From: Moheibacter sediminis
Lineage (GTDB): Bacteria > Bacteroidota > Bacteroidia > Flavobacteriales > Weeksellaceae
DNA length: 64,000 nt
Direction: 5' to 3'
Assembly (NCBI RefSeq): GCF_900176425.1
Contig: NZ_FWXS01000001.1
Coordinates: forward strand, 372,001-436,000
Shown here: positions 23,436 to 28,878 of the stretch, one piece after another
Layout: each line of letters begins with the position of its first letter
Numbering within the stretch: position 1 is the stretch's first letter
Translations under genes and position numbers: made by a program
Notes under the pieces: generated by a model
What the model saw: the letters and a program-made list of their open reading frames with translations, nothing else
The model's database searches: none
What the model was told of the DNA's origin: nothing

Positions 23436-23447
23436 TTAAAATTTGCG

Positions 23448-23455
23448 CAAAGATA
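23448..23455 (-). promoter_or_regulatory. TATCTTTG promoter element for atpD-atpC
   Basis: Minus-strand TATCTTTG, 33 nt upstream of the atpD ATG. Confidence 0.55.
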
Positions 23456-23535
23456 AGTTTTCCAACTGATTCGTAACTAATGATTAATAAGATTTTTATC
23501 AGTATTGCAAGAAGTGATGCTATTAATAAACTATT

Positions 23536-24288
23536 TCACTCCTTATCAATATCTTGACTCTTCATCTCCTGTCTTTTTTTATGAGCATCTTCCCAGAGCT
23601 TTTCAATATCAATTTCTCTAATTTGTATTCCTTTACTCGGTTTGATAATTTTTGGATTATTAATTCTCTTAATTGATTCTGCAATATAGATTACCTTATA
23701 TTCTCTTTCCTTCGATTTTTTCTCTATCTCTAAAATCAATCCAGGTAAACCGAAAAATTCAGCCGGACCACTGGAAACAGGTACTTCGAGAGCATACCAT
23801 GCTGTTATGTAACTATTTTCATTTTCTGCAATTGCCTTTCTAACTTGAAAGCCTAACACATTTTTAGTTTCATCTGTTATGTTCCAATCCCATTTAGGAA
23901 GTGGATCAAGCGTATAATATTTCTGACCATCAATCTCTCCTATATCTTTCATCTGAACAGAATCTTTAAGATTATGATAAGTCACACCAAAACCTGCCGG
24001 AGCATAACGGATATCAAATGTTTGATCTTGACTATTGTTTATCCTGTCCTGGTAAATAAAAGAATATTCTTTACCTGAAACGACCATGATATATGTTTCG
24101 GCTGGAGGCTCTTCATTTGTCTTCATTTGAATTCTGGCTAGATCGCTATCTTCAAACCAATTTTTCTTCTCTTCTTCACTATATGTTTGCCGGACAAATG
24201 CAGTGTAATTAATCTCTAATTGCTGGGCAGTCAAACTAAATGCTAAATTGTATAATAGGAAAATCAAAATTACTTTCAGTAAGCTCAT
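23536..24288 (-). CDS. GLPGLI family secreted protein
   Basis: A 250-residue protein with a signal peptide cleaved near LTAQ. It carries the family hallmark GLPGLILEIE, preceded by AWYALEVPVSSGP. The GLPGLI family is widespread in Bacteroidota and of unknown biochemical function, often found near TonB-dependent receptors or other envelope genes. It lies 78 nt downstream of the Cys-rich lipoprotein gene on the same strand, so a shared function is possible. Confidence 0.88.
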   Translation of the reverse strand: MSLLKVILIFLLYNLAFSLTAQQLEINYTAFVRQTYSEEEKKNWFEDSDLARIQMKTNEEPPAETYIMVVSGKEYSFIYQDRINNSQDQTFDIRYAPAGFGVTYHNLKDSVQMKDIGEIDGQKYYTLDPLPKWDWNITDETKNVLGFQVRKAIAENENSYITAWYALEVPVSSGPAEFFGLPGLILEIEKKSKEREYKVIYIAESIKRINNPKIIKPSKGIQIREIDIEKLWEDAHKKRQEMKSQDIDKE

Positions 24289-24366: not shown

Positions 24367-25074
24367 TTAGTTCTGTTCAATAAATATGGATGCTGTAAGA
24401 CAGTTACACCCTCCCGGATTACAACAGGCGAAATATCCCGAGCCACACGAAACACTACAGCCACCACCACCCATGCTACAACTTGATGCGCCTTCTCCAC
24501 CACTAGAACACCCACCTGATATTTTGCCTTCAAGATCATTCATGGAAATTATAAATTCAACTGCATTCGGCACCTTTATTATTGCAGAAAGAAAATTAGG
24601 TATATTTCTCATTGAGTCCTTGTCTAACCAATGGTAAGTAATTCCTGTCCCATAATATTCATTTTCTTTTTGAAAACTCAAACCAAACAAGGATTTGATT
24701 TCTTTTTCTTCAGATTTATCCACTGCAAAATAATATGATTTCTCCCCATTATTAAATACAAAAGAATGGTCTAAAAAAGTTAAGGTTCCTTTTCCTTTCA
24801 AGTCCAATCCATCTATATTATTACAATTCTGACAGGTGATAACATTTATGGATTTTTCAGATTCCGTATAAAATACAATTTCATCGGATTCATTTTTCCA
24901 AACTTTAAATTCACCGGTGAATTCACCGGGGTTATTAAGTTTAGAAACATTCCCATTTCTCAATATAGAACTGTTGGAAGACGAATCTTGTGAAATAAAA
25001 GATGAGTCATCTTCACTACATGAAAGAATAAAACAAAGGATGAAAATCCCATAGAAAAATTTAAACATTTTCAT
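24367..25074 (-). CDS. Lipoprotein with Cys/Gly-rich C-terminal tail (function unknown)
   Basis: A 235-residue protein. The lipoprotein signal ends at LCFILSC (Cys19). The middle holds a TCQNC pair. The last 50 residues are strikingly rich in Gly, Ser and Cys, with eight cysteines in about 42 residues including SCSMGGGGCSVSCGSG and YFACCNPGGCNC. Such a tail could bind metal, form a disulfide knot, or be processed like a peptide precursor; nothing in the sequence decides. It is paired with a GLPGLI gene and divergent from an XRE regulator. Confidence 0.72.
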   Translation of the reverse strand: MKMFKFFYGIFILCFILSCSEDDSSFISQDSSSNSSILRNGNVSKLNNPGEFTGEFKVWKNESDEIVFYTESEKSINVITCQNCNNIDGLDLKGKGTLTFLDHSFVFNNGEKSYYFAVDKSEEKEIKSLFGLSFQKENEYYGTGITYHWLDKDSMRNIPNFLSAIIKVPNAVEFIISMNDLEGKISGGCSSGGEGASSCSMGGGGCSVSCGSGYFACCNPGGCNCLTASIFIEQN

Positions 25075-25272: not shown

Positions 25273-25527
25273 ATGGAGTGGGTTCCTGAACAAAAAATTA
25301 AGGAAATTAAAAATACGGTTCCTGTCAAAGTCGGGGAAAAAATTCGTTATTACAGACGAATCAAAGATTATACTCAAACTAACCTCGCTGATATGATTGG
25401 TAACGACAGGCAATACATTTACAAAATTGAAAAGGGAAAAGTGAACCCAAGTATTTCCACTATTGCACTTTTGGCTTATGCTTTAGAGATTCCTCTATCC
25501 AAACTTTTAGAGGATATAGAATTATAA
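25273..25527 (+). CDS. XRE-family helix-turn-helix regulator
   Basis: An 84-residue DNA-binding protein. The HTH_3 domain covers about residues 22-80 (KIRYYRRIKDYTQ, then LADMIGNDRQYIYKIEKG and NPSISTIALLAYAL). It is divergent from the Cys-rich lipoprotein gene, 198 nt apart, and could control it or itself. A near-consensus CAATTTTG element (25260-25267) lies 5 nt before the ATG. Confidence 0.85.
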   Translation: MEWVPEQKIKEIKNTVPVKVGEKIRYYRRIKDYTQTNLADMIGNDRQYIYKIEKGKVNPSISTIALLAYALEIPLSKLLEDIEL

Positions 25528-25553
25528 GCTTTTAAACTATTAGTCATATCGCT

Positions 25554-25561
25554 TATCTTTG
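25554..25561 (+). promoter_or_regulatory. TATCTTTG promoter element 6 nt before the ribF ATG
   Basis: TATCTTTG fits TAnnTTTG and ends 6 nt before the ATG at 25568, so the TTG start upstream at 25559 would lie inside the promoter and is unlikely. Confidence 0.6.
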
Positions 25562-25567
25562 CGGTTC

Positions 25568-26544: not shown

Positions 26545-26979
26545 ATGAACATGATTGATTGGTACAAAAAAGTCGTTTTTGAAAACTATGCAAATTTTAG
26601 AGGAAGAGCAAGAAGAAGCGAGTATTGGTATTTTGCTTTATGTAATGGTATTATTTCTATGGTTTTTTACATCCCTTTATTAGTCACGGGAGGTTTTTCG
26701 GATAATTCAGAACCTGGCATAATTTTTTGGTTATGTTACGGATTGTTGATGGTTTATGGACTTGCAACCTTCGTCCCAACATTAGCCGTGACGGTTCGTC
26801 GCTTACACGATATTGGAAAAAGTGGGTGGTATTATTTTGTAGGATTTATTCCTTTAGTAGGTCCTATTATTTTGCTGGTATGGTTTTTTACCGAAGGTGA
26901 AGGACACACAAATCAGTGGGGGTCGGACCCAAAAGATATATTTGGCAACATACATGAAATTGGAAAACCTCAGGTTTAA
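26545..26979 (+). CDS. DUF805 membrane protein
   Basis: A 144-residue protein with three or four hydrophobic segments and the DUF805 hallmarks FRGRARRSEYWYF near the N-terminus and VRRLHDIGKSGWY in the middle. The function of the family is unknown. The ATG at 26551 (third residue) is an alternative start. A second, broken DUF805 gene follows directly. Confidence 0.88.
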   Translation: MNMIDWYKKVVFENYANFRGRARRSEYWYFALCNGIISMVFYIPLLVTGGFSDNSEPGIIFWLCYGLLMVYGLATFVPTLAVTVRRLHDIGKSGWYYFVGFIPLVGPIILLVWFFTEGEGHTNQWGSDPKDIFGNIHEIGKPQV

Positions 26980-26985
26980 TTTCAC

Positions 26986-27392
26986 ATGTTTCAGATTGAA
27001 AATTATAAAAATACCTTTCTGCGTTGTTATGCTAAGTTTTCTGGCAGAGCGGGCAGAAAGGAATTTTGGAGTTTTTTTTTGTTCAATGTTCTATCACTTC
27101 AATTCTATTTATTCCTCATGTTTTACACACAAAATTCGGTTATGAATTCGATTTAAAACCATTTGAAATTTATCAACACATAATAGGCTTGTACATACTG
27201 CTCACCATCGTTCCTTCATTAGCCATTTTAGTCAGAAGGATGCACGATTCGGGTCGAAGCGGGTGGAACCTTTTGTTATTCTTCGTTCCCATTTTTGGAT
27301 TGTTTTATTTGGTAGTTATTCTATTTTATATGATTGATGAAAGTGATGATGGAGGAAATAAATGGGGTGAAAATCCTAAATTTTCTTTGTAG
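26986..27392 (+). pseudogene. Second DUF805 gene, frameshifted
   Basis: From the ATG at 26986 one frame encodes a DUF805 N-terminus (KFSGRAGRKEFWSFFLFN) and stops at about 27148. A second frame then encodes the rest (IVPSLAILVRRMHDSGRSGW and NKWGENP) to 27392. The whole span is 407 nt, one base short of 136 codons, which fits a single-base deletion. The break lies between about 27095 and 27150. It is a recent pseudogene or a sequencing error; the sequence cannot tell which. Confidence 0.75.
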
Positions 27393-27475: not shown

Positions 27476-27802
27476 ATGGGTGCAACTAAAACAGAACATT
27501 TTACCGAAAGCCAAAATCAAATTGCTACCATCGCAAAAGCTTTGGGGCATCCGGCGAGGATTGCCATCGTGGAGCATCTTATGAAAGTGAATCAATGCAT
27601 CTGTGGCGATATCGTCAACGAACTTCCACTTGCACAACCCACCGTTTCACAGCATTTGAAAGAATTGAAAAATGCGGGCATCATCAAAGGAAGCATCGAA
27701 GGAAATACCATCTGCTACTGCATCGACGAAAAAACGATTGAGATATTGAATAATTATTTCTCCAAAATCATCCAAAATGTTTCGGCTAACAAATGTTGCT
27801 AA
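27476..27802 (+). CDS. arsR: ArsR/SmtB-family metalloregulator
   Basis: A 108-residue winged-helix repressor. The recognition helix region is QPTVSQHLKELKNAG. The N-terminal half carries NQCICGDIV, whose two cysteines lie where the ELCVCDL-type arsenic/metal site of ArsR sits, and the C-terminus ends NKCC, possible extra thiol ligands. It should repress the arsenic-type operon and release on As(III) or related thiophilic metalloids. It is flanked by two related operators. Confidence 0.88.
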   Translation: MGATKTEHFTESQNQIATIAKALGHPARIAIVEHLMKVNQCICGDIVNELPLAQPTVSQHLKELKNAGIIKGSIEGNTICYCIDEKTIEILNNYFSKIIQNVSANKCC

Positions 27803-27821
27803 GACATTTTTTATAAAACTA

Positions 27822-27835
27822 TATCGCAATATTGC
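27822..27835. promoter_or_regulatory. Second ArsR-type operator upstream of the DUF6428 gene
   Basis: TATCGCAATATTGC shares 13 of 14 bases with the upstream operator and contains the perfect palindrome GCAATATTGC (27826-27835). It lies 25 nt before the ATG at 27861. Confidence 0.65.
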
Positions 27836-27860
27836 ATTTAAACTATAAAAAAATTTTAAA

Positions 27861-28331
27861 ATGAAATTATCTGAAGTCAAACAAATTTTGCCCGAATTGG
27901 AAAATGTGGAATTCCAATTGGAGGAGGGCAGTTTTGTACCTGAACATTTTCACGTGACCGAAGTTGGAATGGTTTCCAAAAATTTTATCGACTGTGGCGG
28001 TGTCATCCGAATCGAAAACAAAATCAGCTTTCAGTTATGGAATGCAGATGATTTTGAACACAGGCTCAAACCTGCTAAATTGCTGAAAATTATCAGACTT
28101 TCGGAACAAAAATTGGGTATTGGCGATTTTGAAATCGAAGTGGAATACCAAAGCGGGACGATTGGGAAATATGATTTGGATTTCAACGGAAAGACATTTC
28201 TCCTGAAAAATAAAACAACAGCTTGCCTGGCACAGAATGACTGCGGAATTCCAACTGAAAAGCCTAAGAAAAATCTGGCTGATTTGACAGTGAAATCTTC
28301 TGTTTGTTCACCGGATTCAGGCTGTTGCTAA
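27861..28331 (+). CDS. DUF6428 family protein of ars operons
   Basis: A 156-residue cytosolic protein of the DUF6428 type (LENVEFQLEEGSFVPEHFHVTEVG, FQLWNADD). This family accompanies arsR and arsC in Bacteroidota; its role is unknown. The HFHVTE segment recalls a cupin-like metal site and the C-terminus ends CSPDSGCC, again possible thiol ligands. Its stop is directly followed, without gap, by the ATG of a 41-codon ORF. Confidence 0.8.
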   Translation: MKLSEVKQILPELENVEFQLEEGSFVPEHFHVTEVGMVSKNFIDCGGVIRIENKISFQLWNADDFEHRLKPAKLLKIIRLSEQKLGIGDFEIEVEYQSGTIGKYDLDFNGKTFLLKNKTTACLAQNDCGIPTEKPKKNLADLTVKSSVCSPDSGCC

Positions 28332-28457
28332 ATGAAATCAAAATTTATCCGATATAAAAAACCGATTATCATTACCACCTCTGTGGTTGTACTGCAGCTT
28401 ATTTTTGGTTTCGATCCGAAATTCTGCATCATCAATCTCATTTGGTTATACGTTTAA
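28332..28457 (+). CDS. Small single-span membrane protein (41 aa) inside the ars operon
   Basis: An ATG begins on the base after the DUF6428 stop and a 41-codon frame ends 4 nt before the arsC start. The product starts with a basic stretch (MKSKFIRYKKP), has one hydrophobic span (about residues 12-26, IIITTSVVVLQLIFG) and a second hydrophobic end (INLIWLYV). The exact fit between two operon genes and the membrane-protein pattern argue for a real gene. No known family recognised; function unknown. Confidence 0.55.
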   Translation: MKSKFIRYKKPIIITTSVVVLQLIFGFDPKFCIINLIWLYV

Positions 28458-28461
28458 AGTT

Positions 28462-28878
28462 ATGACAAAAAAAATACTGGTGCTCTGCACGGGGAACAGC
28501 TGCAGGAGCCAAATCGCGGAAGGATATTTAAGGCATTTCTCCGGCTCGAAAGCCGAGATTTACAGTGCAGGTGTGGAAACGCACGGCGTGAACACCCGTG
28601 CCATTGCGACTATGAAATCAGACGGGATTGATATTTCACACCATACCTCCAACCACATAAATGAGTACAGGGACATCGATTTCGATTTTGTAATCACGGT
28701 TTGCGACCATGCTAAAGAAAGCTGTCCGTACTTCCCGACAGGTGCGCAGAAATTTCACCAAAACTTTCCTGACCCAGCCAAAGCAACGGGAAGCGAAGCG
28801 GAGATTAAGCATGAATTTGAAAGAGTGCGCCAGCTCATCAGGGATTATTGCGAAAAATTTGTGCAGGAAAATCTCTAA
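28462..28878 (+). CDS. arsC: Arsenate reductase, low-molecular-weight phosphatase type
   Basis: A 138-residue protein from the ATG at 28462 (the frame is open upstream from a TTG at 28387 but that would overlap the small ORF). The P-loop CTGNSCRSQ lies at about residues 9-17, with the DPAKATGS segment carrying the general-acid Asp near the C-terminus. It reduces As(V) to As(III) with thioredoxin-type thiols, or is a closely related LMW tyrosine phosphatase; the ars context favours the reductase. No arsenite efflux gene follows. Confidence 0.88.
   Translation: MTKKILVLCTGNSCRSQIAEGYLRHFSGSKAEIYSAGVETHGVNTRAIATMKSDGIDISHHTSNHINEYRDIDFDFVITVCDHAKESCPYFPTGAQKFHQNFPDPAKATGSEAEIKHEFERVRQLIRDYCEKFVQENL

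Follow-up and report, generated by a model that had tools for sequence, protein, structure and literature searches.

The C-terminal tail of an exported lipoprotein encoded in the 64,000-nucleotide stretch of Moheibacter sediminis DNA analysed here (hereafter the window) carries eight cysteines and, as judged from sequence comparison, belongs to a module that recurs in Bacteroidota, where it either terminates exported proteins or stands free as a Sec-secreted peptide encoded near a six-bladed propeller gene. We propose, with a probability of about one half, that the lipoprotein displays this tail at the surface as a disulfide module and is paired with a GLPGLI family protein. The existence of a free-peptide form makes the tail more interesting than was first apparent, as it defines a recognisable cysteine module, absent from the family libraries searched, that links anchored lipoproteins and free peptides. 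Furthermore, the finding of the two-gene unit at two sites, together with a LolA/RseB-type fold match of the GLPGLI protein, raises the concrete question of whether the latter binds its lipoprotein neighbour.

The eight-cysteine tail announced in the original prediction is real, as evidenced by the open reading frame, a lipoprotein-type signal (..ILSC19-SEDDSS..) and cysteines at residues 189, 199, 206, 210, 217, 218, 223 and 225 of the 235-residue chain. The densest 50-residue stretch of the protein holds eight cysteines, an event with a binomial probability of ~7e-9 at an assumed cysteine background of 0.8% and of ~8e-7 at an assumed 1.5%. The ending given in that prediction, YFACCNPGGCNC, is nevertheless off by ten residues: the C-terminus is CNCLTASIFIEQN rather than CNC, and the chain continues past the last cysteine with LTASIFIEQN. 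By eye, the window's C-SEDDS resembles the export signals SDDDD and SDDFE tested on Bacteroidota lipoproteins, according to PMC5080379, in which the lipobox cysteine precedes one polar and several acidic residues. Read in the same manner from the alignment, the homologues other than the window's have no clear export signal; the lipobox of the protein from the congener G003 is atypical, and the L079 protein has a secretion signal with no evident lipobox.

Pfam (above cut-off), NCBIfam, PHROGs and PADLOC yield nothing for the lipoprotein, those of its relatives that were scanned are equally without a Pfam or NCBIfam hit above cut-off, and no library family covers the tail with a score over its cut-off. 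A structural model derived from seven sequences (pLDDT 71.5) features a beta-rich body and a lower-confidence tail (pLDDT ~60-75). Neither part has a PDB relative by sequence or a convincing fold match (no row with Z > 3.0 and no Foldseek E < 0.13), which does not prove a new fold for the body. A CxxC motif occupies about the same aligned place in the bodies of the window, L067 and L082 proteins and is absent in L066 (alignment A5).

Table. Features of the lipoprotein locus in window coordinates
Feature	Coordinates	Strand	Description and basis
Lipoprotein gene	24367..25074	-	235 aa: signal peptide, lipobox Cys19, ~160-aa beta-rich body, C-terminal Cys-rich tail (ORF, sequence, model)
Predicted lipidated Cys19, followed by SEDDS	25018..25020	-	Sequence; resembles the Bacteroidota lipoprotein export signals SDDDD / SDDFE
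CQNC (Cys81, Cys84) in the lipoprotein body	24823..24834	-	Alignment A5
Eight-cysteine core of the tail, Cys189 to Cys225	24400..24510	-	Sequence, tail alignment
GLPGLI family protein	23536..24288	-	250 aa; TIGR01200 E 8e-37; predicted PNGase-F-II N-terminal / LolA-like half-barrel fold
XRE-type HTH regulator	25273..25527	+	84 aa, divergent; HTH_3 E 8e-13; in the segment absent from two congeners
Three-gene segment between the atpD and ribF start codons	23415..25567	.	~0.2 kb without such genes in G001 (L095) and G005 (L097)

The tail had been singled out as unusual, and it is in addition conserved, with its cysteines spaced like those of a disulfide-bonded module. It follows the pattern C1-x9-C2-…-C3-x3-C4-x6-C5C6-…-C7-x-C8, with the consensus C-x2-GG-x-G-x3-C ... 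C-x3-C-x2-GYYACC ... C-x-C. Across 14 tail sequences, whose collection with tail profiles favours agreement in spacing and whose ends were set by eye, C1 and C2 are always 10 residues apart with GG-x-G in between, C5 and C6 are always adjacent, the C4-C5 distance is 7 in 13 sequences and 8 in one, and the C3-C4 distance is 4 in all nine sequences that have C3. Between the window and G003 proteins, 25 of the 37 residues of the tail core are identical, 11 of them through synonymous codon differences, versus 45% identity for the body. Such in-frame conservation with synonymous changes indicates that the tail is under coding constraint and rules it out as a product of chance, a frameshift or an artefact.

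The cysteines also co-vary. C3 and a CxC pair are either both present (nine sequences) or both absent (five) in all 14 tails, with a Fisher p of 0.0005, or of 0.0045 if the C3-less sequences are counted once per genome, both values being uncorrected for relatedness. In seven of the nine C3-bearing sequences the CxC follows C6, and in the other two (L081 and L082) it precedes C1, with none after C6; the five C3-less sequences, which come from three genomes, retain a single cysteine after C6. Paired gain and loss is what disulfides predict, C3 being expected to bond with one cysteine of the CxC, and from these alignments the co-variation appears to fit disulfides better than metal binding, but the odd or varying totals in L082 (nine) and L079 (10 or 11, depending on the boundary) count against this reading. 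L066 and L079 each carry one additional cysteine before C1 and another after C8, and additional cysteines within the L081 core make its cysteine assignment arguable.

Conservation of the tail in homologues, on which the original prediction had made itself dependent, is seen in seven lipoprotein-form proteins, each at its own locus, and in seven free peptides at five loci. A search of six genomes of the genus recovered one full-length lipoprotein homologue, that of G003 (~43-44% identity, E 2.5e-55), and a weak match in G002 (E 0.036) was taken as chance. Tail profiles added one more full-length protein from G328, which belongs to another family within the same order, and a scan of named genomes with three full-length proteins yielded eight confirmed loci out of 252 candidate stretches, two of which (L076 and L077) proved by gene identity to be loci already found. 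Lipoprotein-size proteins with the tail thereby come from Leptobacterium flavescens (L078), a Saprospiraceae MAG (L081), a Bacteroidetes MAG (L082) and a MAG labelled Bryobacteraceae (L079), the exported tail-bearing proteins measuring ~210-245 residues. Free peptides are found in a Flavobacterium single-cell genome (L080) and a Cryptobacteroides MAG (L083), as well as in G687 (two), G847 (two) and G981 (one), all three of one family.

The module is rare. Tail matches at E 0.1 occur in 18 of 316 genomes of the family, with only G000 and G003 taken as real; the other 16 are at E 0.013 or weaker, with partial profile coverage and in some cases stops, and the loci of two (L034 and L035) were inspected. 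At the order level, 3/346 genomes match at E 0.05; among them G328 is a new, real case, whereas G500 had the look of a chance match. Profile A1 matches 20 of 395 genomes of the phylum at E 0.05; among the 19 outside the window's genome, the loci of 11 were inspected, G847 and G687 were taken as real, and the remaining inspected matches looked like chance Cys- or Gly-rich frames, L057 excepted. The latter, in G671, contains around position 1501 a 34-residue open frame with C-x3-C-x2-GIYAASC..CNC (E 0.007 for one genome), an ambiguous case that could possibly be a degraded or distant relative of the tail. With profile A6, the module is found in 3/296 genomes of the phylum at E 0.001. Within the family of G687 it occurs in three of 77 genomes (E 0.01) and within that of G328 in one of one, and its count in the order of G632 (0/98) is uninformative because that order was picked blindly. 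A search of the family with the full-length lipoprotein matches 129 of 320 genomes at E 1; the tail motif is present in only L001 and L002 among the 31 loci examined, and L004, L005 and L006 (E < 1e-3) match other regions of the protein. A 57-residue double-glycine, bacteriocin-like peptide with several cysteines, including one CC, in a family genome (L020, 1468-1641) is not the tail module. Plasmids searched with the tail and the L083 peptide gave no match, nor did phages searched with the whole protein, and none of 33 viral contig stretches retrieved with profile A1 was confirmed. Cysteine-rich secreted lipoproteins did not come up in a literature search covering sources outside subscription journals.

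With signal and tail removed, the bodies of the window, L067 and L066 proteins match clearly (E 2.5e-12 to 9e-40). The L078 body does so at E 1.6e-4 with a three-sequence profile and at 0.89 with a two-sequence profile, those of L081 and L082 vary with the test between E 0.004-0.04 and mere background level, and L079 gives nothing clear. One body common to all seven lipoprotein-form proteins is only partly supported by these comparisons; what L078, L081, L082 and L079 appear to share with the window protein is the tail, kinship of the bodies being weakly or not supported. The L079 module lies on a 4.5-kb contig of 58% GC, adjoining an FtsX-type permease fragment. The label of this MAG may mean that the module occurs beyond Bacteroidota; alternatively, the contig could be misbinned.

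The window locus reads GLPGLI, lipoprotein and XRE between atpD and ribF, with the GLPGLI gene on the same strand as and 78 bp downstream of the lipoprotein gene, and the XRE gene 198 bp from the latter. In the congeners G001 and G005, atpD and ribF are adjacent, the pair and the XRE gene are absent from the site, and the genus search found no lipoprotein homologue, the G005 assembly being only 81% complete. The site is uninformative in G002, where the contig ends, and in G003 and G004, where ribF has other neighbours, including a gene that by eye is phosphoglycerate kinase-like. From the rarity of the module we infer a gain at the window site rather than a loss, and the GC content of the three genes (0.34 versus 0.353 for the window) reveals no foreign origin. 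Two 12-bp arms in inverted orientation (23446-23457 and 25552-25563) border the segment. We read them not as terminal inverted repeats but as promoter elements of atpD and ribF, which are divergent, because the empty sites have a similar sequence in front of each of the two genes. The Bacteroidota -7 box is TAnnTTTG. No integrase was recognised by eye among the open reading frames listed at the segment. A defence system was considered and rejected: PADLOC gives no hit for the lipoprotein or for two of the free peptides and only E 0.023 for the GLPGLI protein, and the XRE regulator matches many generic HTH models. Elsewhere in the window, an intact DUF805 gene (26545-26979) is followed by a second one (26986-27392) that is split over two overlapping frames and looks frameshifted from its sequence, and positions 27476-28878 hold a small arsenic-type cluster of an ArsR-type regulator, a gene of unknown type and a low-molecular-weight phosphatase/arsenate-reductase-type gene.

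In G003 the pair resides elsewhere, beside RNase R-like and LysE-like genes (named by eye), in the same order and on the same strand with a 7 bp gap; the GLPGLI proteins of the two species are 51% identical and the lipoproteins ~43-44%. The two loci thus define a two-gene unit at two unrelated sites within one genus only. The pairing with GLPGLI advanced in the original prediction accordingly stands within the genus, in two species and at two chromosomal sites, but not as a general rule: a profile of 16 GLPGLI proteins detects one near two of the seven lipoprotein-form loci (window and G003), and a motif search at the others revealed none. The flanks searched covered 64 kb at the window and, at each other locus, between 4.5 and 21 kb overall, L079 and L082 being the shortest, and the lack of GLPGLI near five of the seven loci in this DNA indicates that it is not needed in general. 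Similarly, the divergent XRE regulator is present as predicted, but its association does not extend beyond the window (1/7 lipoprotein-form loci), with no match at the other 15 sources searched, the G003 pair included, in a single-sequence search that could miss a diverged one. The GLPGLI link is therefore real but narrow, and that to XRE so far local to the window site.

The GLPGLI partner is a clear family member (TIGR01200, 127.1 bits versus a curated cut-off of 50, residues 5-234), and its model, derived from 16 sequences (pLDDT 83.4), superposes on the bowl-like N-terminal domain of PNGase F-II with Z scores of 15-16 (PDB 7zgn, Z 15.8, rmsd 3.6 over 172 residues; 4r4x, Z 15.4, rmsd 3.5 over 173 residues). 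The relationship is also detected by a sequence profile (PNGF-II, E 4e-8) and by Pfam PF22252, the PNGase F-II N-terminal domain, over its cut-off, although at 250 residues the partner is too short for the glycosidase domain. PMC12381499 calls the role of this N-terminal domain unknown. The next matches are to half-barrel proteins of the LolA/LolB/RseB type, with LolA, VioE and EPDR1 at Z ~10-11 and RseB at 9.6 (rmsd ~3 to 6), and many LolA, RseB, VioE and EPDR1 chains align to the predicted model at Z ~9-11 over ~120-155 residues, at 3-11% identity. Altogether, 97 of the 997 chains aligned to the model have Z >= 8, PNGases included. A shared fold proves no function, and the half-barrel likeness serves as a lead for GLPGLI. 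The pair, expected to be a possible route to GLPGLI, thus gives a lead through the predicted fold and not through the tail. In the parts of the literature available, GLPGLI genes are only listed in expression tables or a short regulon discussion, with no family function given there.

The free form comprises seven Sec-secreted peptides (signal peptides assigned by eye), two of them in tandem in L068. A DUF5128 six-bladed propeller gene adjoins four of the five free-peptide loci and is one gene away in L080, and all five propellers match the Pfam family over cut-off; these counts are of raw adjacency, with three of the five loci coming from one family. A profile search for DUF5128 gave no match at the seven lipoprotein-form loci, and because the profile was built from the five propellers themselves, only this absence is informative. 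A second propeller locus lies a few kilobases from the two tail-module peptides of G687 (L069, 3151-5187) and combines a DUF5128-type gene with a 79-residue Cys-rich peptide, which has a weak DUF6520 match below cut-off; the neighbouring gene is thioredoxin-like by eye, with no Pfam match.

Two known groups of small Bacteroidota peptides invite comparison. NVEALA proteins are small exported peptides of this phylum, and the L083 peptide, which ends 10 bp before its DUF5128 propeller gene, has a weak local match to their family (PF14055, E 0.0064) and an ESLASGE stretch. It scores, however, 16.6 bits against a cut-off of 27, the four other free peptides scanned (five of the seven) have no match, and neither does the window protein; NVEALA was not mentioned in the literature searched outside subscription journals. 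The bacteroidetocins are small cysteine-containing peptides, described in PMC6671954 as having a 15-16-residue leader ending in GG and a mature part of ~42-48 residues with at least two, and often four, cysteines. In contrast, the window protein has 235 residues, a Sec/lipobox signal in place of a double-glycine leader and eight tail cysteines, and falls outside this group.

We therefore consider a model in which the lipoprotein would be exported, lipidated and held in the outer membrane, where it is probably surface-exposed, and in which the tail would be oxidised into a compact disulfide-stabilised knob. Outside the cell, this knob could bind a partner, be it a ligand, a glycan or another cell, with the lipid anchor keeping it at the surface, and the GLPGLI protein, as a predicted LolA/RseB-type half-barrel in the periplasm, might help fold, hold or deliver the lipoprotein.

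The tail could alternatively be a metallothionein- or chaperone-like module whose CxC and CC pairs, together with the body CxxC, hold copper, zinc or iron at the cell surface. Metals are commonly bound through CC and CxC pairs, the body CxxC recurs in L067 and L082, and the ArsR-type regulator and the phosphatase/arsenate-reductase-type gene are only a few kilobases away. These ars-type genes, however, lie past ribF and outside the segment missing in the congeners, the site is exported and oxidising, and the alignment of 14 tails contains no conserved histidine. Moreover, in most sequences a gain or loss of cysteines affects a pair and leaves the rest as it is, a change that would destroy a shared metal cluster but costs a disulfide-bonded module only one bond. 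We regard metal binding as unlikely. Less probable still is that the tail is the precursor of a released peptide, such as a bacteriocin or a signal, cut at the surface, with the free peptides representing the finished form in other genomes. The seven free peptides at five loci, their tandem arrangement in L068 and small size speak for such a product, as does the production of Cys-containing peptide toxins by Bacteroidota, exemplified by the bacteroidetocins (PMC6671954); yet a double-glycine leader is absent, the 14 sequences have by eye no conserved cut site before C1, and inspection of the open reading frames beside the lipoprotein gene (by eye, with Pfam on some) recognised no peptidase or ABC transporter gene, nor one for a thiol oxidoreductase.

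The protein might also be one of many lineage-specific exported lipoproteins, placed next to GLPGLI and XRE by the accident of one transfer and sharing no joint function with them. The pair is found in one genus only, XRE is matched at one locus only, the module is present in 2/316 family genomes, and the four genus genomes counted, the window's own included, hold 6, 7, 7 and 11 GLPGLI matches (G000, G003, G001 and G002, respectively). Such counts make chance adjacency possible once, but unlikely twice at different sites, and a single accident followed by rearrangement poorly explains why two species, with proteins ~43% and 51% identical, keep the pair at sites unrelated to each other with its order and strand preserved. 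We consequently deem this account unlikely, and retain the surface-displayed disulfide module as the best reading.

A broader and rather improbable extension would make GLPGLI proteins carriers or holdases that serve particular exported partners in the periplasm in the manner of LolA, so that the operon would encode a dedicated carrier-cargo pair escorting a lipoprotein with a new, mobile disulfide module, the same module being the active part of the free peptides near DUF5128 propellers. If true, two display systems would draw on a single undescribed peptide module.

Finally, the window's own genome contains a further GLPGLI array (L099, 692-2998), in which three such genes lie in tandem, the search match of the middle one including an in-frame stop, beside an outer-membrane-type gene that by eye reads as TonB-linked.
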